From Chloroflexota bacterium (GTDB lineage Bacteria > Chloroflexota > Dehalococcoidia > JACPEP01): a stretch of DNA of 64,000 nucleotides. A program made the position numbers and the translations under genes. Below the pieces are notes generated by a model. That model searched no databases. It was not told where the DNA came from and saw nothing but the letters and a program-made list of their open reading frames with translations. The stretch covers positions 108,957-172,956 of the forward strand of contig JACPEP010000008.1 in assembly GCA_016183425.1 (NCBI GenBank). The letters run 5' to 3'. Position 1 is the first letter of the stretch. The number at the start of each line of letters is the position of its first letter. Shown here in pieces: positions 1 to 53,140 of this stretch.

Positions 1-1394
1 ATTCCGGCATCACCGGCGTTGGGGTGCACATAGCCCTCTACGATGGCCTTACTGACCGGGACCGGGAGCTGAAGCTGGTGGCGAAACTGGCAGAAAGCTG
101 GAAGGCGGCGGGCGAACAGGTGTGGGAGTTTAAGCTCAGAAAAGGAGTCAAGTTCACCAACGGCGAGCCCTTCAACGCCGACGTGGTGAAATTTAATATA
201 GAGCGGCAGCAGGACGTGGAGTTCAAACCCCGCTACATCAGCGACTTTAAGGACATCAAGGTGGAGATTGTGGATCCGTACACGGTGCGCATGAATACGC
301 CGGCGGCGGATGCCATTCTTCCCGCCAAGTTTGCCCAAGCACTGACGGTGCCCATGGACTATGTCAAAAAGAATGGCAACGCCATCCTGGGCAAATCTCC
401 CGTGGGCTCCGGCCCCTTCAAGTTTGTGGAGTGGGCAAAGGACGAGAAGCTGGTTTTAGAGGCCAATCCTGACTACTGGGGCGGGGCCCCGGCCATAAAG
501 AAGGTGACCTGGAAGCCCATCCCTCTGGCAGAGGCCCGAGTGGGTGCCCTGAAAACGGGGGGCGTGGACTGGATCTATCAGGTGCCTGAGGACCGTGTTA
601 AGGAGCTGGAAGCCGATCGTAGTCTAGGGGTCAAATGGGTAGGCAGCGCCGGTACCGGCGAGCTAGTAGTGGGTTATGACTACGACACACCCCTCAAAGA
701 CAAGCGGGTGCGCCAGGCACTGCGTTATGCCATAGACGGTCAGAGCATCGTAAAGAATATACTGGGGGGCGTGGGCACCGTGGTGGCCACGGTGCTAGCA
801 CCCTCCTACTTCGGCTACGATGAGACCCTAAAGCCCTACCCCTATGACCCAAAGAAGGCCAAGGAGCTTTTGGCCGCCGCCGGCTACGCCAGTGGCCTGG
901 ACATCGCCCTGGACCAGCCCTGGGTGATGTACCCCAAGGACAACGAGATCATCGATGCCATCGTGGGCTTCCTCCGGGAGGTGGGGGTGAGAGTGAAACT
1001 GACGAGGACAGCTAACAAGAGCACGGCTCTCATCAGGGATGACTATAAGTCCAAAGCAGGCAAGGGCTACCCCGGCCTTTTCTACGGCGCTCGGGGCCAC
1101 GCCTCTCTGGACGCCGATGCCATCATGTATCAGAGCCTCCACACCAAGGGCACTATCAACTACGGCAACTATAGCAACCCCGATCTGGATAAGCTTCTGG
1201 ACAAAGCCAGGGCCACCGTGGATCCGGAAAGTCGCAAAAAGATTTACAAAGATGCCCAGAAGCTCGTTTACGATGACCTGCCCTGGATATTTACTATCGA
1301 TTTCGCCGCTATTCACGCCTTCAACAAAAAGAAGCTGAGCGGCATCCATCCCCGCATGTGGCTGCCCTATGTACACGACGTCGAGCCTGCTTAA
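1..1394 (+). CDS. ABC transporter family-5 (peptide/opine-type) substrate-binding protein, 5'-truncated by window edge
   Basis: Reading frame is open to the window edge (SGITGVGVHIALYDGLT...). SBP_bac_5 hallmarks: AESW...WEFKLRKGVKFTNGEPFNADVVKFNIER, VGSGPFKFVEW, KPYPYDPKKAKELLAAAGY. Confidence 0.9.
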   Translation, partial: SGITGVGVHIALYDGLTDRDRELKLVAKLAESWKAAGEQVWEFKLRKGVKFTNGEPFNADVVKFNIERQQDVEFKPRYISDFKDIKVEIVDPYTVRMNTPAADAILPAKFAQALTVPMDYVKKNGNAILGKSPVGSGPFKFVEWAKDEKLVLEANPDYWGGAPAIKKVTWKPIPLAEARVGALKTGGVDWIYQVPEDRVKELEADRSLGVKWVGSAGTGELVVGYDYDTPLKDKRVRQALRYAIDGQSIVKNILGGVGTVVATVLAPSYFGYDETLKPYPYDPKKAKELLAAAGYASGLDIALDQPWVMYPKDNEIIDAIVGFLREVGVRVKLTRTANKSTALIRDDYKSKAGKGYPGLFYGARGHASLDADAIMYQSLHTKGTINYGNYSNPDLDKLLDKARATVDPESRKKIYKDAQKLVYDDLPWIFTIDFAAIHAFNKKKLSGIHPRMWLPYVHDVEPA

Positions 1395-1435
1395 GTAGTC
1401 ATGTGAGTTAAGTCTGGGAATAAAGGAGGGGGAAA

Positions 1436-2509
1436 ATGGTTGACGTACGAAAGCCAGAGACTGATGTAGCGGATAGATTGAAAAAAATACCGGGCTATCA
1501 GCCAGGCATGCCGGCCCATCGCATGGACGAAGTGACCTTCATGGACGAGTTAGAGCTGATGTGGGGACGGAAGTGGGGAGCCCAATCCAGCATCGGCGAG
1601 TTGAGAACCGTCCTGGTTCACCGTCCCCGGCAGGAGGGCCTCAGGGATGAAGACCTGGCCGACCCCAACTTCTTTGTCAATTTCGGACGGCCGGGAGACA
1701 TCCCCAAGTGGGACAAACGTCTAAAGCAGCACGACGATATGGTGGCGGCCCTAAGAAGTGAAGGGGTCGAGGTCATTCATACCGACTATACCCCCGAAAA
1801 AAGGAAGGGCATCTACGCCTCAGAGGCGGGGGGGCTGGGTCTGGAGCCCATAATTATCCGGGGAGGCGCTATCATCCATCGGGCTGCCATCGCCAGCAAG
1901 CGAGGGGCAGAGCGGTGGATAACGGAGTTCCTGGCCAAACTGGGCTGCCCCATCCTCTTCACTGTCCACGGCAAGGCCATCCACGAGGTGCGGGGCAATA
2001 TCCTCTTTCTCGACCCCGAGCACTGCATCCAGGCCACCAGCGTCCGCAGTAACATGGAGGGGGTACGCCAGGTGGAGCCGGTGCTCAGGGAGGCGGGGGT
2101 TAAAGAGATACATGTGGCTCACTCGCCCAGCTACCTGAACTCTATGCACCGCTTCGGGGCCGCCATGGGCTTCCACATCGTGAACGTATTGAACATGGTG
2201 GACGAAAAGTTGGCCGTATGTTATCCCGGGGCATTGCCCTACGATACCCTGGCCTACCTGAGAAGACTGGGCCTCCGCCTCATTGAGATACCGGAAGAGG
2301 AGGCGGTAAATCAGGCGGGCAACACCTTCTGCATCCGACCGGGAGTTACGCTCATGGCGGCGGGCAATCCCGTCACCACGGCAGCCCTACGTCGGGAGGG
2401 AGTGCGGGTGATCGAGATCGACCTGAGCGAGTCGGCACCCTTTGGCAGCGGCCCCTTATGTCAGATCGGGCCTTTGGTTCGGGACGACGGCCCCTATCTG
2501 AACAGTTAG
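1436..2509 (+). CDS. Arginine deiminase/DDAH/amidinotransferase-superfamily protein, paralog 1
   Basis: RBS gggggaaaATG. N-terminal block IPGYQPGMPAHRMDEVTFMDELELMWGRKWGAQS; ATSVRSNMEGVRQVEP; C-terminal GPLCQIGPLVRD resembles the catalytic-Cys region of the superfamily. Confidence 0.8.
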   Translation: MVDVRKPETDVADRLKKIPGYQPGMPAHRMDEVTFMDELELMWGRKWGAQSSIGELRTVLVHRPRQEGLRDEDLADPNFFVNFGRPGDIPKWDKRLKQHDDMVAALRSEGVEVIHTDYTPEKRKGIYASEAGGLGLEPIIIRGGAIIHRAAIASKRGAERWITEFLAKLGCPILFTVHGKAIHEVRGNILFLDPEHCIQATSVRSNMEGVRQVEPVLREAGVKEIHVAHSPSYLNSMHRFGAAMGFHIVNVLNMVDEKLAVCYPGALPYDTLAYLRRLGLRLIEIPEEEAVNQAGNTFCIRPGVTLMAAGNPVTTAALRREGVRVIEIDLSESAPFGSGPLCQIGPLVRDDGPYLNS

Positions 2510-2522
2510 GCATCACGATGAA

Positions 2523-2565
2523 CTTGTGCCGAGGAAGGCTATGTGAGCATCTTCCTCGGCACAAG
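2523..2565. repeat. Perfect 15-bp inverted repeat (stem-loop, 13-nt loop) between amidinotransferase paralogs 1 and 2
   Basis: CTTGTGCCGAGGAAG - gctatgtgagcat - CTTCCTCGGCACAAG; no downstream T-tract. Confidence 0.85.
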
Positions 2566-2609
2566 CATTGGTAAGAGGCTATAGGGTTGTCCATCAAGGG
2601 GGAGGTATC

Positions 2610-3668
2610 GTGGCAGAGAATATACAAGCTCGTTTAAAGGCGACTATACCTGGCTATCAACCGGGTATGCCCGCCCATCGCATGGACGAAGTGACCTTCA
2701 TGGACGAGTTGGAGCTGATGTGGGGACGGAAGTGGGGAGCCCAATCGGACATGGGCGAATTGAAGCTGGCCATCGTCCATGGGCCGGGACCCGAGTCCGT
2801 GGACGACGAAGTCCTCGCTGACCCGGTTCCCTTTTTCGCCTTCGGTGAAGTGGGAGAGTCTTACGACCTGGAAAGGCATCAACAGCAGCATGATGAACTG
2901 GTAGCCGCCCTGCGAAGCGAGGGGGTGGAAGTCATCTACGCTAACTTCCCTTCGGACATCCACGGTGTATACACCAAGTCCTTAAGGGGAATAATGGCCC
3001 TGGAGGCCTCGGTCATCAACGGGGGTGCGGTCATCCCCCGCTGCGGTGTCCCGTGGAAGAAGGGCTGCGAGAAGGCGTGGACACAGAAGCTGGCAGAGTT
3101 GGGCTGCCCTATCCTGTTCACCGTCCATGGCCGAGGCATCCATGATGTGCGGGCCAACACGGTATGGTTGGACCCAGAGCACTGCGTCGTGGGATGCTCC
3201 CTCCGCACCAATCTGGAAGGAATCCGCCAGGTGGAGCCGATTTTCCGGTACGCCGGAGTTAAGGATTTGCATATTGCCTACCTCCCGGGCCCCCTTTACA
3301 CCCGCAAGCGAGCCGGCTTCTGCGCCGCCTACCATCTGGATATGGTTTTCGGCATGGTGGCGGAAAGGTTGGCCATTATCTATCCCGGTGGCATCGACTA
3401 CGACACCATCGCCTATCTGCGCCACAAGGGGATAAAGTTAATTGAGGTGCCCGAGGAAGAGGCAGTAAACGCGGCGGCCAACGCCTTAGCGGTGCGGCCG
3501 GGAGTGGTCATTATACCGGCGGGGAACCCGGTCACGATCGCCGCTCTACGTCGAGAAGGGTGTCGCGTTGTTGAGGTTGACCTCAGCGAGTTCTCAACAC
3601 GAGGCATCGGGCCGGTGTGCTTAACTGGCCCCCTCATTCGGAAGCCGGGCCCCTACCTGGGTGCCTGA
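2610..3668 (+). CDS. Arginine deiminase/DDAH/amidinotransferase-superfamily protein, paralog 2
   Basis: GTG start after gggggaggt; HLDMVFGMV resembles the HxD segment of arginine deiminases; GIGPVCLTGPLIR C-terminal Cys motif. Confidence 0.8.
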   Translation: MAENIQARLKATIPGYQPGMPAHRMDEVTFMDELELMWGRKWGAQSDMGELKLAIVHGPGPESVDDEVLADPVPFFAFGEVGESYDLERHQQQHDELVAALRSEGVEVIYANFPSDIHGVYTKSLRGIMALEASVINGGAVIPRCGVPWKKGCEKAWTQKLAELGCPILFTVHGRGIHDVRANTVWLDPEHCVVGCSLRTNLEGIRQVEPIFRYAGVKDLHIAYLPGPLYTRKRAGFCAAYHLDMVFGMVAERLAIIYPGGIDYDTIAYLRHKGIKLIEVPEEEAVNAAANALAVRPGVVIIPAGNPVTIAALRREGCRVVEVDLSEFSTRGIGPVCLTGPLIRKPGPYLGA

Positions 3669-3744
3669 AAACAATAGGAAGTCCCAACAAGGCTTATGAT
3701 TTTGGAGAGCTCGAACCACAAGCTATTAGAGCGAAGGAGTAAGG

Positions 3745-4794
3745 ATGGCTGATGTAGCGCAAAGATTGAAGCAGATTCCCGGCTACCAACCGGGTATGCC
3801 CGCCCATCGCATGGATGAAGTGACCTTCATGGACGAGCTAGAGCTCATGTGGGGGCGCAAGTGGGGAGCCCAGTCGGATTTGGGGGAGTTGAAGCTGGCC
3901 ATTGTCCATCGGCCAGGGGAGGAGGAGTTGGCGGAGGATATCCTGGCGGAGCCCTCCTTGTTCTTCCCCTTTGGAACCGAAGTGGCACCATTGGATTTAC
4001 CCAAAAAGCAGAGACAGCACGACGAGTTTGTGGCCGCCTTGCGCAGCGAAGGGGTGGAGGTCACCTATGCTAACTTTTCCCCCACCTCCCGGGGCATCTA
4101 TACTGGCATTCGGGCCCTTTTTGCCCCCGAGCCTCAGGTCATCAACGGAGGTGCCATCATTCCCCGCCACGGTGTAGCGGTAAAGAAGGGTATGGAGCGA
4201 ATATGGACGGAGAAGCTGGTGGAAGTGGGCTGTCCTATCCTTTACACTATCCATGGCAGCGGCATCCACGATGTGCGAGCCAACACTGTTTGGCTGGATT
4301 CCAAGACCTGTGTCGTCGCCTGTAGCCCACGCTCCAACCTGGAAGGGATAAGACAGGTAGAGCCCATCTACCGCAACGCGGGGGTGAAGGAGATCCACAT
4401 CGCCTACCTGGTGGGCTACCTCTACACCCGCAAGCGAAGCGGAGCCTACTGCGGCTACCACCTGGATATGTCCTTGAGCATGGTAGCGGAAAGGCTGGCG
4501 GTAGTTTATCCAGGTGTCTTAGACTACGATACCATCGCCTACCTCCGAAGCAAGAAGATAAAGCTCATCGAGGTGCCGGAGGAGGAAGTTCTCAATGCCG
4601 CTGGCAACTGTCTTGCCGTTAGACCAGGCGTAATAGTTATGGCCGCCGGCAATCCCGTGACCACCGCCGCCCTGCGGCGGGAAGGGGTGAGAGTCATCGA
4701 GCTGAACCTGAGCGAGATGGCTCCCAAGGGTGCGGGACCGGTTTGTATCACGGGACCACTGATACGTGATCCCGGGCCCGACCTAGATGATTGA
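3745..4794 (+). CDS. Arginine deiminase/DDAH/amidinotransferase-superfamily protein, paralog 3
   Basis: Same N-terminal block; YHLDMSLSMV; GAGPVCITGPLIRD. Confidence 0.8.
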   Translation: MADVAQRLKQIPGYQPGMPAHRMDEVTFMDELELMWGRKWGAQSDLGELKLAIVHRPGEEELAEDILAEPSLFFPFGTEVAPLDLPKKQRQHDEFVAALRSEGVEVTYANFSPTSRGIYTGIRALFAPEPQVINGGAIIPRHGVAVKKGMERIWTEKLVEVGCPILYTIHGSGIHDVRANTVWLDSKTCVVACSPRSNLEGIRQVEPIYRNAGVKEIHIAYLVGYLYTRKRSGAYCGYHLDMSLSMVAERLAVVYPGVLDYDTIAYLRSKKIKLIEVPEEEVLNAAGNCLAVRPGVIVMAAGNPVTTAALRREGVRVIELNLSEMAPKGAGPVCITGPLIRDPGPDLDD

Positions 4795-4830
4795 GCCTTA
4801 ATTGGAGGATTGCCTTAGAAAGGAGCGCGA

Positions 4831-6435
4831 ATGAACCGAGAAGTTAGTTACTGGCAAGACATTCTTGGGAAACGGCTGACGAGGCGACGGGCGCTGGGTA
4901 CGGCAGCCAGGATGGGAATCGGCCTGGCTGGGGCCTCTTTGCTCGCCTGTGCACCAGCGGCCAAAAAGGTTGAACTGGAGAGCATTACCTACGGCTATAT
5001 CAAGGAAGGGGTCACCCTTGATGGCCACATCGACTTCCAGATTGGCAGTATGTCCATGGGTGAGGCTATTTACGATGGTCTCACCTACCTTAACACGAAG
5101 AAGGAGCTGGAGCCGGCCCTGGCAGAGAGCTGGAAGACCATCGATGACAAGACCTGGGAGTTCAAGCTCCGCAAGGGGGTAAAGTTCCATAACGGCGAGC
5201 CTTTCAATGCCCAGGCGGTCAAGTGGAATGTGACACGCATCCAAAACCCCAAGCACACCGGCCGGCTGCGAGCGGTGCTGGACACTATTCAAGGGGTGGA
5301 GGCGGTGGACGAGGCTACTGTTCGCATCACCACCAAGCAGCCCGATCCCCTCATTCCGGTGAAGTTCTTCCAGACCAAGATGGTGCCCCCCAAATACCTC
5401 CAGGACAAGGGAGACGAAATCTTAGCCTCTCAGCCCATAGGCACCGGACCCTATAAGTTCGTGGAGTGGCCTAAGGATGTCCATATTCTCATGCAGCGGA
5501 ACGATGAATACTGGGGCCCCAAGCCAGCGGCAAAAAAGATATATCTTAAGGCCATACCCACCCAGTCGGCCCGGGTGGCGGCCCTAAAGACAGGTGCCGT
5601 CGATATTGCCTATTCCATGACCAAAGAAGACATTGATGAACTGACCAAAGACAAAAACCTGGATCTTTACAAAGCCGGGGCACCCAGCTCCACTACCATG
5701 CGTATGAGCTTTGGCTCGGCAACGGCCAAGCCCCTCCTGGACAAACGGGTGAGGCAGGCTATTCTTTACGCTGTAGACTGGGATGCCATTGCCAAAAACA
5801 TCTACGGTGGCCTGGCGACGCGCACCGCCAGCTTGCCCCCCTTCGGCTACCTTGGCTACGACTCTTCTCTCAAGCCCTACCCCTACGATCCCAAAAAAGC
5901 TAAGGAGTTGCTGGCTGCCGCTGGATTAAGCAACGGATTCGAGGTTGCGGTGGATGACTATCAGCCGGGTACCCTGGCGAGGCAGGGAGACATGGTGCAG
6001 GCCATTGTCAACTATCTCTCGGCGGTGGGTATCAAGCCCAAATTCAAAATGTGGGAGTACAGCGCCTGGCGCACCCATCGTTCCAAGGCCTTGGCGGATA
6101 AAACGGGGTTTGAGGGCATATTCTACACCAGTTGGGCCGATGAGACTTTCGACGGCGACGGCTACGTATACAATCTGTACCATACCAAGGGCACTTTCAA
6201 CTTTGCCGTTCACTCCAACCCCAAAGTAGACGAGCTTCTGGACAAGGGCCGCACCACCATCAGCCCAGAGGGGCGGAAGAAGGTCTACGCTGACCTGAGC
6301 AAACTCCTTTACGACGAGGCGGTAGAGTTGATGGGCCTCATGGTGGAAGATACATATGCCTACAACAAAACCAAGATTCGGAAGATGGCCGCCTCCGGCT
6401 GGATGACAAAGATTCGAGAGATGGCTTTCGTCTAA
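4831..6435 (+). CDS. Family-5 ABC substrate-binding lipoprotein, paralog 2
   Basis: LTRRRALGTAARMGIGLAGASLLAC gives a twin-Arg-like leader with lipobox; SBP_bac_5 motifs throughout. Confidence 0.9.
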   Translation: MNREVSYWQDILGKRLTRRRALGTAARMGIGLAGASLLACAPAAKKVELESITYGYIKEGVTLDGHIDFQIGSMSMGEAIYDGLTYLNTKKELEPALAESWKTIDDKTWEFKLRKGVKFHNGEPFNAQAVKWNVTRIQNPKHTGRLRAVLDTIQGVEAVDEATVRITTKQPDPLIPVKFFQTKMVPPKYLQDKGDEILASQPIGTGPYKFVEWPKDVHILMQRNDEYWGPKPAAKKIYLKAIPTQSARVAALKTGAVDIAYSMTKEDIDELTKDKNLDLYKAGAPSSTTMRMSFGSATAKPLLDKRVRQAILYAVDWDAIAKNIYGGLATRTASLPPFGYLGYDSSLKPYPYDPKKAKELLAAAGLSNGFEVAVDDYQPGTLARQGDMVQAIVNYLSAVGIKPKFKMWEYSAWRTHRSKALADKTGFEGIFYTSWADETFDGDGYVYNLYHTKGTFNFAVHSNPKVDELLDKGRTTISPEGRKKVYADLSKLLYDEAVELMGLMVEDTYAYNKTKIRKMAASGWMTKIREMAFV

Positions 6436-6480
6436 AGAGCGGTAACTGGCCTTAGGGAGCAAGAGAAGAGAGGAGATAAA

Positions 6481-7548
6481 GTGGCTGGGGTAATGGATAG
6501 ATTAAAGAAGATACCTGGTTATCAGCCAGGTATGCCCGCCCACCGCATGGACGACGTGACATTCATGGACGAGTTGGAGCTCATGTGGGGGCGGCAGTGG
6601 GGAGCCCAATCCAGCATTGGGGAGTTGAGGCTGGTATTGCTCCATCGTCCTCAGCCGGGGACCGTCCCCGTGGAGGCCCTGACCGACGCCTACTCTTTCG
6701 TTAGTTTAGGCGAGCGAGAACTTAACGTCGACTGGGACAAGAGAATGAAGCAGCACGATGATCTGGCGGCCGCTCTGAGGAGTGAGGGGGTGGAGGCTAT
6801 CTACACCGACTATCCCCCAGAAAAGAGGAGGGGCATCTATGTCTCAGAGGCAGCAGGGCTGGGCCTGGAACCGATAATTATCAACGGCGGGGCTATCATC
6901 CACCGCGCCGCCATCCCACGTAAGAAAGGGGCGGAGCGGTGGATATCGGAGTTTCTGGCCAAGTTGGGGTGCCCCATCCTCTTCACCGTCCATGGGAGCG
7001 CCATCCACGAGGTGCGGGGGAATATCGCCTTCTTGGACCCCAAGACCGCCATTCAGGCCACTAGTGTCAGGAGCAACATGGAGGGGGTTCGTCAGGTGGA
7101 GCCTATCTTGAGAATAGCCGGAGTGGAGGAGCAACACGTAGCTCATTCTACTAGTTACCTGTACTCTCCCCGCCGCTGCGGCGCCGCCGCGGGCTTCCAC
7201 CTGGTGAACGTCTTGAATATGGTGGCGGAAAGATTGGCTGTGTGCTACCCCGGCGCCATAGACTACGATACCATAGCCTACCTCCGGAGCAAAAGGATAA
7301 AGCTTATCGAGGTTACAGAGGAGGAAGTGATCAAGGCTGCTGGCAACTGCCTAGCTATCCGACCCGGGGTGGTGGTTATGGCCGCGGGCAACCCAGAGAC
7401 CTCTTCTGCCCTACGCCGGGAGGGAGTGCGGATCATTGAGGTGGATCTAAGCGCCCTATCCTCTGGCGGAGGCGTAGGCGGCATGGCGGGGCCGGTATGC
7501 CTCGTCGGGCCATTGATTCGGGATCCGGGGCCCTATCTCACGGACTGA
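6481..7548 (+). CDS. Arginine deiminase/DDAH/amidinotransferase-superfamily protein, paralog 4
   Basis: GTG start after agaggagataaa; closest by eye to paralog 1 (SSIGELR, IIHRAAI, ATSVRSNMEGVRQVEP, FHLVNVLNMV). Confidence 0.8.
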   Translation: MAGVMDRLKKIPGYQPGMPAHRMDDVTFMDELELMWGRQWGAQSSIGELRLVLLHRPQPGTVPVEALTDAYSFVSLGERELNVDWDKRMKQHDDLAAALRSEGVEAIYTDYPPEKRRGIYVSEAAGLGLEPIIINGGAIIHRAAIPRKKGAERWISEFLAKLGCPILFTVHGSAIHEVRGNIAFLDPKTAIQATSVRSNMEGVRQVEPILRIAGVEEQHVAHSTSYLYSPRRCGAAAGFHLVNVLNMVAERLAVCYPGAIDYDTIAYLRSKRIKLIEVTEEEVIKAAGNCLAIRPGVVVMAAGNPETSSALRREGVRIIEVDLSALSSGGGVGGMAGPVCLVGPLIRDPGPYLTD

Positions 7549-7560
7549 AGGAGGCCAAGA

Positions 7561-8880
7561 ATGTCCAATAAAGAGGATTTAGAAAAGAAAGTTCTGGACA
7601 AGATCGACCAACTAGAGCCAGAGATGGTCAAGGTCGCCTTGGACCTGGCGGATACGGACAGCTTCCAGCCGAACGAAAAAGTAGCCGGTGACTACCTTTA
7701 TGCTTGGTGCCAGGAGAACGGCTTTGGGCCCCAAAAGATAGGGGCTCCCCACCGGTTTAACGTCCTCGCCAAATACAAGGGAACTGGTAAGGGGCACAGC
7801 CTTCTCTTTTGTAGCCATCTCGACGGTCCCGACGGCGGGACGGGGCCCGGGAGAGAGCTAGCCAAATGGAGATATAGATACCCCGATGCACCCTTTAGAA
7901 CCCATGCCTGGAGAGAGGGGGATGCCATCATCGGTGGGTCGATAAACAACTGTAAAGGTCCCATGGCCTGCTGGCTCATCGCCACTAAAGCCATCAATGA
8001 CCTAGGGATCAAGTTGCTGGGGGACATCGTCCTTACGGCCGTCGTCGGCGAAACGGGTGGGGCGCCGGTGGATGAGTTCGAAGCCCCAGAATGGGACTCC
8101 CACGAAGTGGGGGCAAGATATATCGCTTCCCACGGCGGCATCGCCGACTTTGCCCTGGTCGCCGAGTGGACCGACTTCACCCTAGTCCCCATGGAGAACG
8201 GTTTTGCCTATTTCAAGATCACCACATACGCCGGACCCGCCACCTATACCCCATCCCTCTCCCGCCCCGAGCCGTCCCGGGAAAAGAGTGTAAACGCCAT
8301 CGTCCGTATGGCCAAATTCATAGAGAGATTCGAACAGTATGCTGATGAATATACCAAAGAAAATACCTACTCCTTCGACGGCAGCACGGTGGTTCCCAAC
8401 GCCAGCATTGGAGCGATAAGGGGCGGGATACCCCCCAATCCCATCCACTCCCCGGAGGTGTGTAGTATTTACTGCGACTTCCGGATCCCACCCGGGAAAA
8501 ATCCCCTGGATATCCAGCGCCACCTTAAGGGGATTCTGGAGGAGATGGAGATGGATAGCCAGGTGGAGATGTATAAGTACCTACCGGGATACCAGGCGTG
8601 GCACAACAATGGTTTCGATGTCCTCAAAAATGCCGTGGTCGAAGCGCACACCAGGCTTTTCAACAAGCCTCCCCAAGTTGCGTCTCGAACTTTGGTTAGC
8701 ATGTGGCGGGACGTTAACGCCTTCAATGAGCTTGGAGTACCGGCCATTTCTTACGGTTTCATAAGAGGGCGTACCCCCGAGGGTGCTGGATACATCAAAA
8801 TCGCCGATATGATAACGGCGGCTAAGGTTTATGCCTTGACAGCTCTGGACATTTGCAATCGGCCATACAATGGTAGCTGA
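7561..8880 (+). CDS. M20-family metallopeptidase/amidohydrolase-like protein with atypical metal-site motifs
   Basis: SLLFCSHLDGPDGG (HxD), GGSINNCKGPMACWLIA in the position of the usual D-x-K-G motif, VVGETGG, and a C-terminal M20-like segment (GVPAISYGFIRGRTPEGAG). Confidence 0.75.
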   Translation: MSNKEDLEKKVLDKIDQLEPEMVKVALDLADTDSFQPNEKVAGDYLYAWCQENGFGPQKIGAPHRFNVLAKYKGTGKGHSLLFCSHLDGPDGGTGPGRELAKWRYRYPDAPFRTHAWREGDAIIGGSINNCKGPMACWLIATKAINDLGIKLLGDIVLTAVVGETGGAPVDEFEAPEWDSHEVGARYIASHGGIADFALVAEWTDFTLVPMENGFAYFKITTYAGPATYTPSLSRPEPSREKSVNAIVRMAKFIERFEQYADEYTKENTYSFDGSTVVPNASIGAIRGGIPPNPIHSPEVCSIYCDFRIPPGKNPLDIQRHLKGILEEMEMDSQVEMYKYLPGYQAWHNNGFDVLKNAVVEAHTRLFNKPPQVASRTLVSMWRDVNAFNELGVPAISYGFIRGRTPEGAGYIKIADMITAAKVYALTALDICNRPYNGS

Positions 8881-8963
8881 AAATAAGTGGGAGTGATGCC
8901 CAAAGGAAATCCCAGTGTGGTTAAGAGTGGCTTAATGCCACAGACTCAGAAAGGAAGTTTGTC

Positions 8964-10592: not shown

Positions 10593-10670
10593 GGAAGAAA
10601 ATTAGGAGGTGGCTATATAGCAGAGATGAGCAAAGGGAATGGTCGACGTCGAGAGTAGGTTTAGCACCAT

Positions 10671-10793
10671 GACGAGGCGGTAGAGTTGATGGGCCTCATG
10701 GTGGAAGATACATATGCCTATAACAAAACCAAGATTCGGAAGATGGCCGCCTCCGGCTGGATGACAAAGATTCGAGAGATGGCTTTCGCGTAA
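10671..10793 (+). pseudogene. 3'-terminal relic of a substrate-binding protein gene (near-identical to the end of the 4831-6435 CDS)
   Basis: DNA matches 6313-6435 almost exactly. It encodes DEAVELMGLMVEDTYAYNKTKIRKMAASGWMTKIREMAFA-stop with no upstream ORF. Confidence 0.92.
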
Positions 10794-10839
10794 AAAGTGG
10801 TGATTGGTCTTCCAAAGAAGACTAGAAAAGGAGCGCAAA

Positions 10840-11889
10840 ATGGCTGAGGTAACGGATAGATTAAAGAAGATACCTGGTTATCAGCCAGGTATGCCGGCCC
10901 ATCGCATGGACGACGTGACCTTCATGGACGAGCTGGAGCTCATGTGGGGGCGCAAGTGGGGGGCCCAGTCGGAGCTAGGGGAGTTGAAGCTGGCCATCGT
11001 ACACCGGCCGGGAGAGGAGGAGTTGGCCGAGGAAGTGGATGCCGCCCCCGCCTTTTTCTGGAACTATGGCAGTGCCATTACTCCCTTCGATCTGGAGAAA
11101 AAGCAGAGGCAGCACGATCAGTTTGCGGCCGCCCTGCGCAGCGAGGGGGTGGAGCTAATCTATGCCAACTTCCCCCCCACTGTTCGGGGAATCTACAGTG
11201 GCATTCGAGGATTGGCGGCTCCCGATCCCCAGATAATCAATGGCGGCGCCATAATTCCTCGTTGTGCCATCGCTGGCAAGCGGGGGATGGAGATTTTATG
11301 GACCAAGAAACTGGCCGAGCTAGGCTGCCCTATCCTCCTTACCATCCATGGCAGCGGCATCCACGAGGTGAGGGCAAACACGGTGTGGCTGGACCCCAAG
11401 CATGTGGCAATCGGATGCTCGGTCCGCTCCAACCTGGAGGGCATAAGACAGGTGGAGCCCGTCTACCGCGACGCTGGCGTAGAGGAGATCCATATCGCCT
11501 ACTTGCCTGGTTTTCTCTACACCAAGGGGCGAAAGACTAATGCCGGCGCCTTCCATTTAGATAACGTTCTGGGTATGGTGAATGAGAAGCTGGCCGTCGT
11601 CGTCCCCGCTGGTCTGGACTATGACACCATCGCCTACCTGCGGGAGAAAAAGATTCGCCTCATCGAGGTGCCTGAAGAGGAAGCTGTAAACGAGGCCGGC
11701 AACTGCCTGGCCATAAGACCAGGAGTCGTGGTCATGGCCGCCGGTAGTCCGGTGACCTGCGCCGCTCTCCGGAAAGAGGGATGTCGCGTCATTGAAGTGG
11801 ATATGAGCGAGATGTCCACCCGGGGCGGCGGGCCAGTTTGTTATACCGGTCCTGCCATCCGTGAGCCCGGCCCTTACTTGGACGACTAA
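10840..11889 (+). CDS. Arginine deiminase/DDAH/amidinotransferase-superfamily protein, paralog 5
   Basis: ATG after aaaaggagcgcaaa; shared N-terminal block; FHLDNVLGMV; GGGPVCYTGPAIRE. Confidence 0.8.
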   Translation: MAEVTDRLKKIPGYQPGMPAHRMDDVTFMDELELMWGRKWGAQSELGELKLAIVHRPGEEELAEEVDAAPAFFWNYGSAITPFDLEKKQRQHDQFAAALRSEGVELIYANFPPTVRGIYSGIRGLAAPDPQIINGGAIIPRCAIAGKRGMEILWTKKLAELGCPILLTIHGSGIHEVRANTVWLDPKHVAIGCSVRSNLEGIRQVEPVYRDAGVEEIHIAYLPGFLYTKGRKTNAGAFHLDNVLGMVNEKLAVVVPAGLDYDTIAYLREKKIRLIEVPEEEAVNEAGNCLAIRPGVVVMAAGSPVTCAALRKEGCRVIEVDMSEMSTRGGGPVCYTGPAIREPGPYLDD

Positions 11890-11910
11890 GTAGAGAGTTG
11901 GCAGAAAGGT

Positions 11911-11941
11911 CAGGGAGCCGCCCCTTTGGGGCGGCTCCCTG
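11911..11941. terminator. Bidirectional terminator-like hairpin between convergent genes
   Basis: CAGGGAGCCGCCCC-TTT-GGGGCGGCTCCCTG, perfect 14-bp stem, between CDS ends at 11889 (+) and 11982 (-). Confidence 0.75.
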
Positions 11942-11981
11942 CCTCTCATCTACAGTCTCAATGGATGAGGAGAGGCAGCGC

Positions 11982-13622
11982 TTAGGCGGCGAGCCATATG
12001 TTCATGAGCCGCGGTCCGAAGTCCGGATGGGGGACAAAGCCCATAACATTCTTGCTTATGGCATAAATGCCCGCCTCCCACACCAGGGGGAGCCAGCAGT
12101 AGACCTGCTCCCGAGCCAGCTTGTCTATCTGCCGAACGTATTGATTTATCTGCTCTGGGTTGGCTGTAGCCGCCGCCTTGGCCAGAAGGCCTTCGATCTC
12201 CGAGCCCCGGGGTGGGTCACACAGCTTGCTGCCCATTTCCTCAGCTGGCAGCATCCACCGCACTGCCATTCGGGGATCGAAGGTGATGGTGCCGCCGCCG
12301 GCAATATAGAGCTGGTGTTTTCCATCTCGGCTATAGGCCGAGGCAGCCGCTGTCTCCAGAGGGTGCAAGCGGACCCGAATGCCGATCTTGCTGAGCATGT
12401 CCTGAAGAACTTCCCCTAGCTGGGCCTCGTCGGGGCGCCCGGTACGGAGCGTCATCTCCATCTCGAACCCGTCGGGATACCCTGCCTCCACCATCTTCTG
12501 CTTGGCCTTGGCTAGGTCGAACTCAGTCCCCTTCAAACTGGGGTCATACGCGCCGCCATGCTGGGAGGAGACATAGCCATAATTGACCGGAAACAGACCC
12601 TTAAACAAAGCGTCGGAGATCTTTTGTCGGTCAACAGCGTAGGTGATAGCCTGGCGCACCGCCAGCTTGGACAGGATCTTATCCTTCATGTTGAATCTCA
12701 GGATGCGCTGGTTGAAGGAAAGGCCTTGCACAACCTTGATGTTGGGGTCCCCTTGAACCTCGGGCAAGCGGGCCGGCTCCACCTCCTCCACAAAATCCGT
12801 CTGGCCCGATTTGAGCATTACTATCTTTACCGACCGGTCAGGCACCAGCTTCCAAGTGATGCCATCCAGGTAGATCTTGTCCTTTTCCCAGTATTCGGGG
12901 AACCGGGTAACCTCCAGGCGGTCATCAATAGCGTGGGACTTAAGACGGAAGGGGCCGGTGCCGACAGAATAACGGGGGAAGTCATCCCCGTACTTGGCGG
13001 CGGCGGTTGGAGAGGTGATAGCGCCCTCCTGCGTTATGATGAGCTGATCGATGAACTGGCCATAGGGGTATTTGAGGTTGAACTTTAGGGTGTAGTCATC
13101 CACCACATCCATGGATTTTACGTACTGCTTGTAGCGAGAGCTAAAGCCGGTAACCAGGCCCGCCGCCCGTTCGAAATGGGCCTTGGCTGCCTGGGCACTG
13201 AAGTCGGTGCCGTCGTGGAACTTGACGCCGCGCCTCAGCTTGAAGATATAAGTGCTCAGATCCGGGGCCTCCCACGATGTGGCCAAACGAAGTATCATGT
13301 TGCCTTTGCTGTCCCACTCCAGAAGATTGTCGTACAGATGCCGGACCCAGGACCAGCCGAAGCCGCCATCTTTGTTATCGGCGGGGTCAAGTTTGGTACC
13401 CAGGTAGCTGTAAGCAGCCCGAAGGGTGCCTCCCGCTCGCGGGACAACGGCAGTCGGGGTCGGCTTTGCCGCCGTAGTAGCTACGGGGGCCGGCGATGGA
13501 GCAGCGCAGCCGAGCAGGGTAGCTCCGGCCAGACCCATACCTGCCTGATAGCCCAATCTCAACCATTCACGTCGAGATAACCGCCGTCCGAGCGTTTTCT
13601 GCCAATACCCCTTCTCGTCCAT
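11982..13622 (-). CDS. Family-5 ABC substrate-binding lipoprotein, paralog 4
   Basis: LSRREWLRLGYQAGMGLAGATLLGCAAPSP leader; FKLRRGVKFHDGTDFSAQAAKAHFER; SVGTGPFRLKSH. Confidence 0.9.
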   Translation of the reverse strand: MDEKGYWQKTLGRRLSRREWLRLGYQAGMGLAGATLLGCAAPSPAPVATTAAKPTPTAVVPRAGGTLRAAYSYLGTKLDPADNKDGGFGWSWVRHLYDNLLEWDSKGNMILRLATSWEAPDLSTYIFKLRRGVKFHDGTDFSAQAAKAHFERAAGLVTGFSSRYKQYVKSMDVVDDYTLKFNLKYPYGQFIDQLIITQEGAITSPTAAAKYGDDFPRYSVGTGPFRLKSHAIDDRLEVTRFPEYWEKDKIYLDGITWKLVPDRSVKIVMLKSGQTDFVEEVEPARLPEVQGDPNIKVVQGLSFNQRILRFNMKDKILSKLAVRQAITYAVDRQKISDALFKGLFPVNYGYVSSQHGGAYDPSLKGTEFDLAKAKQKMVEAGYPDGFEMEMTLRTGRPDEAQLGEVLQDMLSKIGIRVRLHPLETAAASAYSRDGKHQLYIAGGGTITFDPRMAVRWMLPAEEMGSKLCDPPRGSEIEGLLAKAAATANPEQINQYVRQIDKLAREQVYCWLPLVWEAGIYAISKNVMGFVPHPDFGPRLMNIWLAA

Positions 13623-13711
13623 AGTGGAACCTCCTCGAGGCTTTTACGGAGCCTCCAACCTACTTCTCTCCCGAGTGCCTCTAATCCGACTTACGAACCT
13701 CCGCGGTGTTC

Positions 13712-14242
13712 TTAGGGTGTGGCTTTTCCCGGTACGTATCCCTTAGCCTCCTCCGTGGGACCGGGCGGCATCTCCACCAGGGTGGGGGTACCTCCAATAT
13801 TCATGTGGCGGTAAATGCCGCCAGGGTAGATGGCCAGCACCTTGCAAATCTTGTCTTTGTTGGCGTTAAAATGCTGGTGAACGCAGCCGGTGTGGACGAT
13901 AGCCACGCACCCTGGCTTCCAATCGTAGCGCTTGCCATCGTGGATTTCGTGCCCCTCTCCCTCGATGATATAGAAAATAGCCTCACCGAAGTGGCCATGC
14001 TTCTTACCATAGCCCCCGGGCGCGTAGACGCCAAACCAGGAGGTGAAGCTGGTTTGCGGCATTTCGGGAGTATTGGGCCCCTGCAGTACCCACTTACGGA
14101 AGTACATGCCGCCGCCCGTATCCTCCCAGGGTTGGCTATCTATCTCCTCCGCCGTCAACACGCGCGGCAGTTTCCGCAGCCGCGCCAGGCGCGCCTTATC
14201 GGTGTCTTCAGGCTTCTCTTTCCACTTGACTATTTCTTGCAT
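13712..14242 (-). CDS. Small cupin-domain protein A
   Basis: GKKHGHFGEAIFYIIEGEGHEIHDGKRYDWKPGCVAIVHTGCVHQHFN is a cupin metal-site pattern; tandem paralog of 14303-14839. Confidence 0.85.
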   Translation of the reverse strand: MQEIVKWKEKPEDTDKARLARLRKLPRVLTAEEIDSQPWEDTGGGMYFRKWVLQGPNTPEMPQTSFTSWFGVYAPGGYGKKHGHFGEAIFYIIEGEGHEIHDGKRYDWKPGCVAIVHTGCVHQHFNANKDKICKVLAIYPGGIYRHMNIGGTPTLVEMPPGPTEEAKGYVPGKATP

Positions 14243-14302
14243 TTCCTCTCACCTCCCTAACCTCTCTGCTAGAAGCGTCTTTTCGCGGCCTTTGCAGAGG
14301 TC

Positions 14303-14839
14303 TTACGGCGTGGCCTTGCCCGGTATGAACCCTTTAGCTTCCTCCGTGGGACCAGGGGGAATCTCGATCTGGGTAGGGGAGCCGCCGATGTTCATTTGCC
14401 GGTAGATGCTGCTAGGGACGATGGTCAGAACCTTGCATATCTTGTCTTTGTTGGCATTGAAGTGCTGGTGGACGCACCCCACATGGACGAGAGCGACGCA
14501 CCCCGGCTTCCAGTCGTAGCGCTTGCCATCGTGGATCTCGTGGCCCTCCCCTTCGATGATGTAGAAAACGGCCTCAAAGAGGTGGCCGTGTTTCTTGCCA
14601 TAGCCCCCGGGAGCGTACACTCCGAACCAAGAGGCGAAGCTGGTCTGTGGAAGCTCAGGGGTGTTGGGCCCACCCAGTACCCACTTCCGGAAGTACATGC
14701 CGCCACCTGTATCCTCCCAGGGTTGGCTATCTAATTGCTCCGCCGTTAACACGCGTGGCAGTTTACGCAGCTGCGCCAAACGGGCCTTCTCGGTATCTTC
14801 GGGCTTCTCTTGCCACTTTACTATTTCTTGTTCTGCCAT
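14303..14839 (-). CDS. Small cupin-domain protein B
   Basis: Collinear and highly similar to 13712-14242; GKKHGHLFEAVFYIIEGEGHEIHDG...HQHFN. Confidence 0.85.
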   Translation of the reverse strand: MAEQEIVKWQEKPEDTEKARLAQLRKLPRVLTAEQLDSQPWEDTGGGMYFRKWVLGGPNTPELPQTSFASWFGVYAPGGYGKKHGHLFEAVFYIIEGEGHEIHDGKRYDWKPGCVALVHVGCVHQHFNANKDKICKVLTIVPSSIYRQMNIGGSPTQIEIPPGPTEEAKGFIPGKATP

Positions 14840-14908
14840 CTCACCTGCTCCTTCTCCATCCTCATTACCTGAGATAACGCCAGTTCTAAACCTAGGCTTT
14901 ACTCTCTG

Positions 14909-15463
14909 TCACCGCTCATGATATTCGGGGGCCTCTTCCAGCTGCTCCAGATCGTTCCCCCAGACGGCGTCGTAAAGGCGGCTGACAGCGGAAATAAACC
15001 GGGCAGGCTTCTCCTGGTCAGCATTGAAGTGTTGATGTATCGTGTTCACGGGGATGATAACAGCATCCCCCTTTTTCCATTCCCAACGGGAAGGTGCCTC
15101 CTGGGGCTTCCACACATAGCGGTTGGTTACCTCCATATCTACGTCCCAGTGCAGGTCGTACCCCCGTCCATCGAGGACGTATATATACTCTTCGGCCATA
15201 TGGCGGTGCTTTCCAGAGCGGCTACCGGGGGGAATCTCTTGCATATAAACGTCTACCGTTTTGATACGAGTGTCCAATTTGGAGTTCACCAGGTGTTTGA
15301 TCTTGCCTTGGGGGCATATCTCCCAGGGCATCTCACCAGGGTTTAACAGCTTCTTAAGCTCTTCATCCCGTTCTTTCTGCTCCTGGGCATCCTCCAGCCT
15401 TTCCGTATAGAAGTGCGCCGTCCGATCGCCCTTATCCCAGTGCTCAGATTCGTGAAGTGTCAT
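14909..15463 (-). CDS. Small cupin-domain protein C
   Basis: PPGSRSGKHRHMAEEYIYVLDGRGYDLHWD...GDAVIIPVNTIHQHFNADQEKPARF. Confidence 0.82.
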   Translation of the reverse strand: MTLHESEHWDKGDRTAHFYTERLEDAQEQKERDEELKKLLNPGEMPWEICPQGKIKHLVNSKLDTRIKTVDVYMQEIPPGSRSGKHRHMAEEYIYVLDGRGYDLHWDVDMEVTNRYVWKPQEAPSRWEWKKGDAVIIPVNTIHQHFNADQEKPARFISAVSRLYDAVWGNDLEQLEEAPEYHER

Positions 15464-15509
15464 TTGTTCTTCCCCTTATTAGCAACGACTCTTAACTACC
15501 CGCCGTCTC

Positions 15510-15560
15510 TTAGCCTTTGTACTCCGGCACGTTTTCAAGTTGCTCCAGTTCGTAGTATAC
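15510..15560 (-). pseudogene. C-terminal relic of another small cupin gene
   Basis: Reverse-strand frame VYYELEQLENVPEYKG-stop parallels the end of 14909-15463 (WGNDLEQLEEAPEYHER-stop); no ORF upstream. Confidence 0.7.
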
Positions 15561-15953
15561 ACCCAAACAGCCTCTTTAGCGGTCTCTGCACCCCTCGAAC
15601 TTGGGATCAGTGCTCTCCTCCCAATGACCCTTTTCTAACATGGTTTTGCAAGAATGTCAAATGCTGAGGGCGCTTAACAAGGGGGTTTCAAGGGGGCTTC
15701 TGCCCCCTTGACGGTCCTTCCTTGGAAGGATGGGGGCGGCCCCCTCCCCACCTCTGGCGGGGACAAATTCCCAGGGCGGGTGGGTGGGCTGAAGAGATAT
15801 TAAACACCCTCAAATGCTGAAGTTTTGTTTTGCGGGGAAAAGGTGATTTTTTGAGAGATTTGCTGAAGAAGGTTCTTTATTTGCTTGGACATATCCTATA
15901 TTATGAAAGAACTAACATTATCGGTTTATCAAATAGACTGGAGGAGGAAGGAC

Positions 15954-17123
15954 ATGCAAGGCAGAGCGCCTGTATCTGGCCCGAGGACGATTTACGAGCA
16001 ATGGATGGAAAAAGAAGGGATACCAAACTACCAAGCCGAAGCTGGCGTCGAAGACGTCACCAAGCTGCCGCGGGGACCGTGGGCTCGTCTGGGAGGCTTG
16101 GGAACCTTTATCGAGCTGGAGGGGACGAAGCAGGCGAGAAAGCTTCTCTATGTGGCGGAGATACCTGCGGGTGGGGCTTTGGAGCCAGAGAAGCATCTGT
16201 ACGATGAGCTTATCTGCGTCTTGCAGGGTCGGGGTTTAGCGGAGGTGTGGCATGAAGGGCAGGGTAAGGTTGCCTTTGAGTGGGGTAAGGGAAGCCTGTT
16301 TGCCATACCATTGAATGCCTGGCACCGCTTTGTAAACGGAAGTCGGGAGCCCGTGCTTTTGTTTGCGGTGACAAGTGCTCCCCTGGTGATGAACACCTTA
16401 CGCAACCTAGAGTTCATCTTCAACTGTGACTACAAGTTCACCGACCGTTTCACAGGAAAGGCCGATTATTTCGTTGTTGGTGAAAAACAGTATAAGGATT
16501 GGTCGGGACACAACGAGCGGGATACGAACTTCGTGCCCGATTTGCTCTCCGTCTCGATGCGTCCCCAGCCCGAGAAGGCTGAGGACCAGGTCTCTGACGG
16601 TTTTAATATGGCTTCCTGGCGTGGTACAGCCGCCGGGGAGTGGCCGGCGGGGAAGTATCACAAGGCCCACTATCACGGACCGGGAGCCATACTTCTGGGG
16701 CTGAGGTCTGAGGGCTATGCCATACTTTGGCCCCGGCAGTTCGGGATACACCCTTACCAGGACGGACACGGAGACAAGGTAATAACGGTGAACTGGAAGG
16801 TTCATGGTATCTATTCCCCGCAGACCGAGTGGTTCCATCAACACTTCAACATCGGGACGGAGCCGGCGCGGCACTTGCGGGTGACGGGTGGTGGGATCGG
16901 GATCGAGCTTCCCACGCTCAGTAAGGAAGTACCAACCACGCTCAGGGATGGGGTACCCGTAGCCACCTATGCCAGCATCCGGGACGGTGGCAGGGTCATC
17001 GAATACGAGGACGAGGACCCTGCGATAAGGCGGGGGTTTGAGGAGATACTGCGGCAAAAAGGCCTTAAGTCCGCTATGAAGCCAGTGGTTTATCGTACCG
17101 ATCCGTTCCGGGAACCCCGTTAG
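15954..17123 (+). CDS. Two-domain cupin (bicupin) protein
   Basis: ATG after gaggaggaaggac. N-terminal cupin (EKHLYDELICVLQGRGLAEVWHEGQ...NAWHRFVNG) and C-terminal cupin (KYHKAHYHGPGAILLGLRSEGYA...EWFHQHFNIGTEPARHL). Confidence 0.82.
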   Translation: MQGRAPVSGPRTIYEQWMEKEGIPNYQAEAGVEDVTKLPRGPWARLGGLGTFIELEGTKQARKLLYVAEIPAGGALEPEKHLYDELICVLQGRGLAEVWHEGQGKVAFEWGKGSLFAIPLNAWHRFVNGSREPVLLFAVTSAPLVMNTLRNLEFIFNCDYKFTDRFTGKADYFVVGEKQYKDWSGHNERDTNFVPDLLSVSMRPQPEKAEDQVSDGFNMASWRGTAAGEWPAGKYHKAHYHGPGAILLGLRSEGYAILWPRQFGIHPYQDGHGDKVITVNWKVHGIYSPQTEWFHQHFNIGTEPARHLRVTGGGIGIELPTLSKEVPTTLRDGVPVATYASIRDGGRVIEYEDEDPAIRRGFEEILRQKGLKSAMKPVVYRTDPFREPR

Positions 17124-17252
17124 CGCGAAGCCAAGGGAAAGAGGCCCCTTGCCGCCAACGACGCTGAAGAAGTAAGACTGGTTACGTGGCTGGTCCCTTA
17201 AGGGAGCGCAAAGTAGGTAGAGTGCCTACCCTTACCTATTTAGGAGGTTAAC

Positions 17253-18731
17253 ATGCACGATGATCTCGAAGAGTACGCTGACCGCCAGGAAGAAGAAGGA
17301 GCGGTTCCTCATAAGCACTCAGACTTGATGGAGCTGGTCAGCGTAGGCATCGACATCGGTTCCTCCACATCCCACCTGATGTTCTCGCGCCTCTTACTGG
17401 AGCGGCGCGGCCGCGAGTTCTCCAGCCGTTTTGAGGTAGTCGAGCGAGAGTCCCTCTTTCGCTCTCCCATCCTACTAACCCCCTATCGGGATAGGGACAC
17501 CATTGATACCGAGGCACTGGCCCAATTTATCAACCGCTCTTACGCTGAGGCCGGGGTGGAATCCTCCCAGGTCGATACTGGTGCCGTTATCTGCACTGGG
17601 GAGGCGGTGAAGAAGAGGAACGCGGAGGCCATCGTCCGCCTTTTCGCCGACCAGGGGGGCAAGTTCGTCTGTGCTACGGCTGGGCCTAATTTGGAGACTG
17701 TTCTGGCCGCCCATGGCTCCGGTGCTGTTGCCCACTCCCGTGACAGCACCATAATGAACGTAGACATAGGAGGTGGCACCTGCAAACTAGCTATTGTAAA
17801 GAATGGAGCTATCCTGGAGACGGCCTGCATTAATGTGGGCTCCCGCCTAGTAGCCTGGGATACCCAGGGGCAGGTCAACCGTATCGAGGAAGCAGGGGCC
17901 AATATAGCCTCTTGGGCCGGGATACCTTTGGAACTGGGAAAGCCGCTGAGCCAGCAGAACAAGGTGGCTCTGGCTGAGGCTATGGCGCAGCTCCTGTTCG
18001 AGTTTCTTGAGGGCAAAGGTCTCTCCCCTCTGGCAGAGGAACTCCTCATCACGCCATTCTCTAGATATGTCAGGGATGGTGCCCGACTTTATTTCTCCGG
18101 GGGCGTGTCGGAATACATCTATGGTCGAGAGGTTCAGGACTATGGAGACCTGGGACGTCTCCTTGCCGAGTCAATCCAGAAGCGAGTCCCCGTCCTCGGC
18201 CTGAAAGTGGGAGAGCCAGATGAGGGGCTGCGGGCTACCGTCATTGGAGCCTCTCAATACACTATCCAGGTCAGCAGCAGCACTATATATCTCTCTCGGA
18301 AAGACCTTTTGCCCATCCGGGACCTCTTGGTGGTGGCACCCTTGTTGGAGGGGGTGGAGCCTAGTGCCGATGGGGTGGCCAATGCCATCGAGAGAGTCTT
18401 CATGCGCTTCGACCTGATGGAGCACCCGAGGCCGGTGGCCCTTTCCCTGCGGTGTCCTTGGGAGAACTCTTATACCACCCTGAAAAACCTTGGGCTGGGC
18501 GTGCTTCAGGCTAAGGCTTTATGGGGGCATCAGAATCCTTTTGTCCTGGTTTTCGATGCCGACATCGGGAGACTGGTGGGAGCGCTCTTAAAAGAGGAGC
18601 TCGCTCTGGAGCAAGAAGTGGTAGCGATAGACGAAATCACAGTGGGGGACCTGGATTTCATCGACATCGGGGAGGAACTGGGCTATTCTCAGGCAGTACC
18701 CGTGGTAGTGAAATCCCTGGTGTTCAGGTAG
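17253..18731 (+). CDS. eutA: Ethanolamine ammonia-lyase reactivating factor EutA-like ATPase
   Basis: Actin-like ATPase motifs GIDIGSSTSHLMFS and NVDIGGGTCKLAIV; CATAGPNLETVLAAHGSGAVAHSRDSTIMNVDIGGGT is EutA-type; RBS aggaggttaacATG. Confidence 0.82.
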   Translation: MHDDLEEYADRQEEEGAVPHKHSDLMELVSVGIDIGSSTSHLMFSRLLLERRGREFSSRFEVVERESLFRSPILLTPYRDRDTIDTEALAQFINRSYAEAGVESSQVDTGAVICTGEAVKKRNAEAIVRLFADQGGKFVCATAGPNLETVLAAHGSGAVAHSRDSTIMNVDIGGGTCKLAIVKNGAILETACINVGSRLVAWDTQGQVNRIEEAGANIASWAGIPLELGKPLSQQNKVALAEAMAQLLFEFLEGKGLSPLAEELLITPFSRYVRDGARLYFSGGVSEYIYGREVQDYGDLGRLLAESIQKRVPVLGLKVGEPDEGLRATVIGASQYTIQVSSSTIYLSRKDLLPIRDLLVVAPLLEGVEPSADGVANAIERVFMRFDLMEHPRPVALSLRCPWENSYTTLKNLGLGVLQAKALWGHQNPFVLVFDADIGRLVGALLKEELALEQEVVAIDEITVGDLDFIDIGEELGYSQAVPVVVKSLVFR

Positions 18732-23499: not shown

Positions 23500-23513
23500 T
23501 TTATAGGAGGTTG

Positions 23514-25055: not shown

Positions 25056-25088
25056 AGGGATCTTTCCAGAGCTGAGGTTGTTTAACAA

Positions 25089-25131
25089 TGTCATTCTGAG
25101 GATTCTCCGCCTCTGGCGGATCAGAATGACA
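25089..25131. repeat. Dispersed intergenic repeat with nested palindromes
   Basis: TGTCATTCTGA ... TCCGCC-TCT-GGCGGA ... TCAGAATGACA; outer 11-bp perfect inverted repeat. Confidence 0.8.
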
Positions 25132-25193
25132 GGACATTTTTTCTAAACACCCTCCAGATCTGGGGATTGAATAAAACGGATGGGGGTCGCCTA

Positions 25194-52312: not shown

Positions 52313-52315
52313 GCT

Positions 52316-53137: not shown

Positions 53138-53140
53138 GCA

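Follow-up and report, generated by a model that had tools for sequence, protein, structure and literature searches.

What does a locus do in which paralogous members of the guanidino-group modifying enzyme (GME) superfamily alternate with family-5 substrate-binding proteins (SBPs)? Such a locus occupies the first 18.7 kb of the window, by which we mean the whole 64,000-nucleotide stretch analyzed here (contig JACPEP010000008.1, C33, positions 108,957–172,956, of a Chloroflexota bacterium). It contains five GME paralogs, four SBPs, one M20-like protein, four cupin genes and one EutA. All 15 genes listed in an earlier note on this DNA correspond to open reading frames at their positions in the region 1–18731, and the Pfam matches to arginine deiminase (ADI)/dimethylarginine dimethylaminohydrolase (DDAH), Cupin_2 and EutA are all above their own cut-offs, which excludes chance matches. 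With moderate confidence, we read the plus-strand run at 1–11889 as an import-and-hydrolyse array that takes up carboxylated nitrogen compounds; aminoaromatic or aminoheteroaromatic acids would be among its substrates, and guanidino acids may be as well. The locus consists of at least three transcription units, not one. Unit 1 (plus strand, 1–11889) is of the order SBP-GME3-SBP-GME-M20-SBP-GME, where GME3 stands for three GME genes; unit 2 (minus strand, 15463–11982) contains three single-domain cupins and one SBP; unit 3 (plus strand, 15885–18731) contains one double cupin and EutA. The intergenic gaps are short only within unit 1, where they are 12–83 bp, with one of 211 bp; the single short-gap locus proposed in the earlier note is therefore correct for 1–11889 and incorrect for the region as a whole.

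The five GMEs of unit 1 are 55–73% identical to each other and are matched above cut-off by the Pfam ADI and DDAH models. The curated ADI/DDAH models, however, gave about 17–71 bits against cut-offs of 300–489, and the arginine deiminase equivalog TIGR01078/ArcA gave 50–66 bits against 489. A profile of 16 GME paralogs from this genome matched 2-nitroimidazole nitrohydrolase (NnhA; Mycobacterium sp. JS330; PDB 9azg; PMC11659421) over its full length at 3.6e-37; its matches to ADIs and DDAHs were 1e-18 or weaker, and ADIs were matched in parts only. The AlphaFold2 model of GME paralog 5 (predicted local distance difference test score 80, predicted template modelling (TM) score 0.78) is of the α/β-propeller fold of the superfamily. 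Its best fold match is again NnhA, with a TM-score of 0.83 over 358 columns, and the Foldseek probability is 1.00 for NnhA, ADI and DDAH. Like NnhA, the GMEs possess the full-length GME fold, the Cys-His-Glu residues and the N-terminal extension (IPxY...G), which could be aligned along its length by both sequence and fold. Different from NnhA, to which they are about 26% identical, they fall apart from it in the tree and occur as 17 paralogs in one genome.

Residue roles were taken from PMC11659421 and transferred to an alignment of all 17 paralogs. The nucleophilic Cys and the His are conserved in 17 of 17 and the catalytic Glu/Asp in 16. The carboxylate Arg (R243 position in P. aeruginosa ADI) is present in 16, whereas NnhA has Ser there, and Lys occupies the second carboxylate position (ADI R185) in 15. 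The position of ADI D280 (NnhA D262), which holds the guanidinium in ADI, is occupied by Asp in eight paralogs, Val in three, Thr in three, Arg in two and Cys in one; at ADI D166, which marks the second guanidinium position, 14 paralogs have an acidic residue, two have Gln and one has Met. The hydrophobic imidazole pocket of NnhA (Trp149/Met168/Ser216) is not conserved, the GMEs having acid/Gln/Met, Lys and Arg instead. In the window, paralog 1 (P0002, 1436–2509, plus strand, as are the other four) and paralog 4 (6481–7548) carry Val at the D280 position. Asp is found there in paralog 2 (2568–3668, start codon uncertain), paralog 3 (P0004, 3745–4794) and paralog 5 (P0009, 10804–11889, likely starting at the ATG at 10840); Asp also replaces the catalytic Glu in paralogs 2 and 3. 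These proteins are thus superfamily members with Cys-His-Glu/Asp, in agreement with the earlier note and uncontradicted by structure prediction, and their closest solved relative is NnhA, not arginine deiminase. The further suggestion that the paralogs may cover substrate variants fits the differences at the guanidinium-holding residue, and we propose that variation at the D280 position tunes the leaving-group side.

The M20-fold protein P0007 (7561–8880, plus strand) had been taken as an enzyme that cleaves amide bonds. Among the Pfam M20 models, only the dimerisation domain passed its cut-off, PF01546 reaching 22.6 bits against 24.6. P0007 shares 45.2% identity over 418 residues, its full length, with 5-nitroanthranilate aminohydrolase (5NAA-A; Bradyrhizobium sp. 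JS329; PDB 5k8m), and the NCKGPMACW signature is identical in both. The canonical M20 di-metal ligands are absent in P0007: the bridging Asp is Asn, the second Glu is Thr and the distal His is gone; 5NAA-A shows the same departures. The same signature and ligand losses are found in five paralogs elsewhere in the genome, which together with P0007 are 43–45% identical to 5NAA-A over the full length; a profile of the six matched 5NAA-A at 3e-127, with no second solved protein within 1e-8. Judged by sequence, P0007 belongs with 5NAA-A as a relative of an aromatic aminohydrolase and is probably not a peptidase. This grouping and the loss of the canonical ligands remove the main argument for cleavage of peptides or opines.

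5NAA-A uses metal-dependent nucleophilic aromatic substitution to convert an aromatic amino group to a hydroxyl group (PMC9814641); the next enzyme in Bradyrhizobium is a cupin dioxygenase (PMC10306065). P0007 is accompanied by GMEs and SBPs, whereas 5NAA-A is accompanied by a monocupin 5-nitrosalicylate dioxygenase. In other Chloroflexota, a cupin-family gene lies within 8 kb of a 5NAA-A-type M20 gene in six of nine loci, compared to none of ten GME control loci; four of the six cupin-positive loci come from one family. Most of these cupin-family genes encode bicupins resembling gentisate/aminosalicylate dioxygenases. Three of the five M20-linked cupins tested match gentisate/5-aminosalicylate dioxygenase models at 1e-18 to 1e-22, under the curated cut-offs, and the other two match weakly. 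Outside this phylum, 5NAA-A-related M20 genes were also seen on Acinetobacter and Paraburkholderia plasmids (L169 and L168) with a Rut-like set (LLM flavin enzyme, isochorismatase-type hydrolase and flavin reductase); they are annotated as peptidase or hypothetical.

A whole-genome search located the 17 GME paralogs in three arrays, with five copies on C33 (the window), two on C40 and ten on C39. Family-5 SBPs are present in all three, as the co-occurrence claimed in the earlier note would have it. The ratio of nonsynonymous to synonymous substitution rates (dN/dS) between GME paralog pairs is 0.06–0.19, indicating constraint. At 26970–34489 of C39, Thr and Arg at the D280 position alternate as T-R-T-R-T, a pattern that duplication of a two-gene unit would produce. 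The last copy of this run, C39:33416, lacks both the catalytic Glu and the substrate Arg, yet its dN/dS is 0.16. Constraint is strongest in an N-terminal arm of 34 codons (IPGYQPG...WGAQS): among the window and C40 paralogs, dN is 0–0.05 in the arm, with dS of 0.45–2.4, and 0.22–0.44 outside it. Amino-acid identity is 95% in the arm versus 59% elsewhere in this group, and 74% versus 57% in the C39 group. The arm is part of the N-terminal extension shared with NnhA, in which this extension forms a domain-swapped dimer and lies near the active site of the partner (PMC11659421). The near-invariance of the arm suggests a shared interface and perhaps mixed oligomers; the same pattern would be expected if the arm simply had a structural or substrate-related role in every paralog. 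A bolder proposal, which we consider rather unlikely, is that the array paralogs co-assemble through the domain-swapped arm into combinatorial mixed hydrolases, with some chains such as C39:33416 as non-catalytic partners; together with exchangeable SBPs this would constitute a previously undescribed modular scavenging of nitrogen-rich dissolved organic matter.

The genome is 2.7 Mb in size and 95% complete, and encodes 58 family-5 SBPs versus four Dpp-type (DppBC) permease pairs, one of which lies inside the C39 array. Most SBPs read carry a Tat-type lipoprotein signal. This includes the four of the locus: 1–1394 (P0001, plus strand; 534 residues in full, its start lying 211 bp left of the window at C33:108746), 4831–6435 (plus strand; a sister of the SBP adjoining an M20 pair on contig C26), 8964–10592 (plus strand) and 11982–13622 (minus strand), which shares a transcription unit with cupins, apart from the GME run. 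The solved chains nearest to P0001 include YliB/GsiB, AppA, DppA and AgaA. An SBP clade tied to the GMEs was rejected, the tree labels not being clustered. This scatter implies that the pairing of SBP and enzyme is mix-and-match and that the ligand is not readable from the SBP; the SBPs thus indicate no common ligand. In 543 kb, mostly around SBPs and read with a simple gene caller, the expanded enzyme families are flavin adenine dinucleotide (FAD) oxidoreductases (20), molybdenum (Mo)-hydroxylases (12), cupins (10), RidA-like proteins (8), VOC proteins (7), M20 proteins (7), UbiD (6), cyclases (6) and isochorismatase-type hydrolases (5); for the FAD and cyclase families, no solved relative was found at the thresholds used. 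Like the expansions described in SAR202 Chloroflexota (PMC6946804, PMC5395668), these are big paralog sets, which in SAR202 were read as broadening the usable dissolved organic matter. The SAR202 sets are FMN monooxygenases, enolases and ring-hydroxylating dioxygenases; a deiminase, M20 or SBP expansion is unmentioned there. Across comparison genomes of the same class, none from the genome's own order, first-look family-5 SBP candidates number 0 to 366 per genome, as candidates and not confirmed counts, at most about 12 per genome having been scored; the 366, not individually scored, are in one 5.0-Mb genome (G026).

The close GME subfamily is rare, being found by sequence patterns at three loci in the genome collection. 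Two Rhodospirillales metagenome-assembled genomes carry it as a single gene, at 44% identity. Distant GMEs directly adjoin a canonical M20 gene in two genomes (G363 and G190) and a Mo-hydroxylase gene in G276, and they occur with Pot-type importer genes in a Chloroflexota genome (G369), Shinella and Haladaptatus. Thus a GME beside M20, Mo-hydroxylase or an ABC importer recurs outside this genome, and the exact cluster does not. The earlier expectation of a conserved neighbourhood holds to that extent; single GME genes also occur, so that its refutation by singly scattered homologs is neither complete nor absent. The subfamily was also found in one deltaproteobacterium, the NnhA-like gene of which groups with NnhA in the tree (97/92); in its surroundings (L046, 2809–5969) are genes for a cupin-like protein, DUF2848, a PreA-like dihydropyrimidine dehydrogenase and an oxoacid:ferredoxin oxidoreductase. 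On a Kozakia baliensis plasmid (L166), one stretch carries a GME, two M20 genes, an aldolase, deacetylases, SBPs and an amino-acid ABC importer. On a plasmid of Streptomyces sp. NBC_01727 (L170), nnhA lies beside a dihydropyrimidinase gene and an M20 gene, plausibly a route for the imidazolone after denitration.

The gene content, the predicted fold with its catalytic residues, the family assignment, the paralogy and the recurrence are established; from these we infer transport, reactions and substrates as follows. Unit 1 would be one of three capture-and-hydrolyse arrays in an uncultured, probably anaerobic bacterium. Outside the cell, the Tat-exported lipoprotein SBPs would bind small nitrogen-rich carboxylic acids and pass them to a few shared Dpp-type permeases. 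The imported compounds would be carboxylated amidino-, guanidino- or amino-(hetero)aromatics, which would lose their nitrogen substituent hydrolytically. In the GMEs, the conserved Arg and Lys would hold the substrate carboxylate, and the C-terminal Cys would attack the sp2 carbon (of a guanidine, an amidine or a ring) that bears the nitrogen substituent, so that ammonia or a different leaving group departs. His and Glu/Asp would then activate a water molecule that frees the carbonyl product; judging from the conserved residues, this mechanism would be that of ADI, DDAH and NnhA. The M20-fold enzyme would act in a comparable way, removing the amino group of an aminoaromatic or aminoheteroaromatic acid by metal-dependent hydrolysis, like 5NAA-A.

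Several observations weigh against this scheme. No permease gene lies at the window locus. The GME-linked SBPs are not one clade (9 tree changes versus a shuffled mean of 9.2), and the M20 gene on contig C17 has no adjoining SBP. The M20 proteins next to GMEs in G363 and G190 have canonical ligands, so that the enzyme type differs from P0007. Six of the nine Chloroflexota M20 loci come from one family and are thus not independent. A bicupin dioxygenase would need oxygen, yet the genome encodes carbon monoxide dehydrogenase/acetyl-CoA synthase. Finally, the substrates of the GMEs and of the aromatic aminohydrolase may be unrelated, the two being only neighbours in the genome.

Catabolism of guanidino acids is a possible, though doubtful, alternative. 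The GMEs would be ADI- or DDAH-like and act on arginine-derived acids (methylarginines, creatine-like and guanidino acids), a ureido hydrolase would cut the ureido product, and the amine would enter amino-acid metabolism. Beyond the catalytic triad shared with ADI and dimethylargininase, five C39 GMEs (52053–60275) retain an almost complete arginine-site constellation, with (T/P/V)RD, Lys, Arg and His-Asp in all and Asn in four of the five. Five RutB/biuret-hydrolase-like cysteine hydrolases lie near SBPs, glycine/sarcosine reductase B subunits adjoin SBPs on contig C11 (GrdB- and GrdG-like component B genes between SBP genes at L123 8207–15262), and related GMEs occur in polyamine-type importer operons. 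However, the curated model scores are far under the family cut-offs, the ADI helical domain is absent, the guanidinium-holding Asp at the D280 position is replaced in nine of the 17 paralogs, and the accompanying M20 protein belongs to the aromatic type. The genome's one match to carbamate kinase, the arc partner, scored 21.5 bits against a cut-off of 358; with no arcC and the low model scores, the arginine deiminase pathway itself was rejected. The Rfam riboswitch scan, empty in the window and yielding only tRNAs near the other two arrays, found no guanidine riboswitch.

Use of peptides or opines, in which the SBPs would import arginine-bearing peptides, the M20 enzyme would cleave them and the GMEs would deiminate the products, draws on the frequent binding of such ligands by family-5 SBPs and on the neighbours of P0001 named above. 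We regard it as improbable, given that the M20 protein falls with 5NAA-A and has lost three of the canonical metal ligands, and that related SBPs elsewhere in the genome accompany Mo-hydroxylases and FAD enzymes. Still less probable is that the GMEs are amidinotransferases or binding proteins of natural-product biosynthesis instead of catabolic hydrolases. Amidinotransferases have the same fold and Cys-His-Asp, and the structural matches include 4jdw and SxtG; these matches are weaker than that of NnhA (E 4e-13 versus 2.5e-23), no nonribosomal peptide or polyketide synthase was seen in the neighbourhood, and the neighbours are binding proteins and degradative enzymes. The import-and-hydrolyse array matters in that few enzymes swap a ring or guanidine nitrogen for oxygen using plain water, and two rare types, NnhA-like and 5NAA-A-like, lie side by side here. 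The function of uncharacterised NnhA-like enzymes was left open in the NnhA paper (PMC11659421), and the 17 GME copies, which differ systematically at a residue that holds the substrate, provide a panel for it. Two labels are likely mis-annotations: 'M20 peptidase' where the enzyme is an aromatic aminohydrolase, and 'arginine deiminase' where it belongs to this GME group.

The cupins and EutA, counted as system members in the earlier note, are not specific partners of the GMEs. Unit 2 encodes three single-domain cupins on the minus strand: 13712–14242, with the metal motif HxH...HQHFN; 14303–14839, 86% identical to the neighbouring cupin; and 14909–15463, the nearest solved chain of which is auxin-binding protein 1 (4e-9). 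Elsewhere in the genome, cupins accompany SBPs without a GME, and the cupins here belong to this wider SBP-cassette theme. The double cupin of unit 3 (P0014, 15885–17123, plus strand) is a far relative of gentisate/5-aminosalicylate 1,2-dioxygenases and no solved relative was found for it at the thresholds used. Two Chloroflexota loci with a 5NAA-A-type M20 gene nearby carry its best matches (36% and 31%), and the double cupin may be linked to M20. The EutA-family protein (17253–18731, plus strand; PF06277, 5e-124) probably lies outside the capture-and-hydrolyse system. EutB was not found in the genome by a search that detects the control in E. coli, and an ethanolamine system was rejected, EutA being an orphan.

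Just upstream of the array lie two UbiD-type decarboxylase genes and an arylmalonate-decarboxylase-like gene, in keeping with the import-and-hydrolyse reading, and then a mur/fts cluster. An assembly artefact was rejected, given that the array shares a 173-kb contig with that cluster and that the genome is 0.3% contaminated at the completeness given above. A defence system was likewise rejected, PADLOC finding none, and the promoter and terminator scan gave results near the shuffled expectation. Further along the window, positions 23511–27512 encode a MenA-like prenyltransferase that is extended at its N-terminus and, after it, a large subunit resembling those of 4-hydroxybenzoyl-CoA reductase/xanthine dehydrogenase. 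Two 117-bp repeats, 91% alike, form a tandem pair at 29695–29928, and a 354-residue protein encoded at 31023–32087 has a cupin domain at its C-terminus only.

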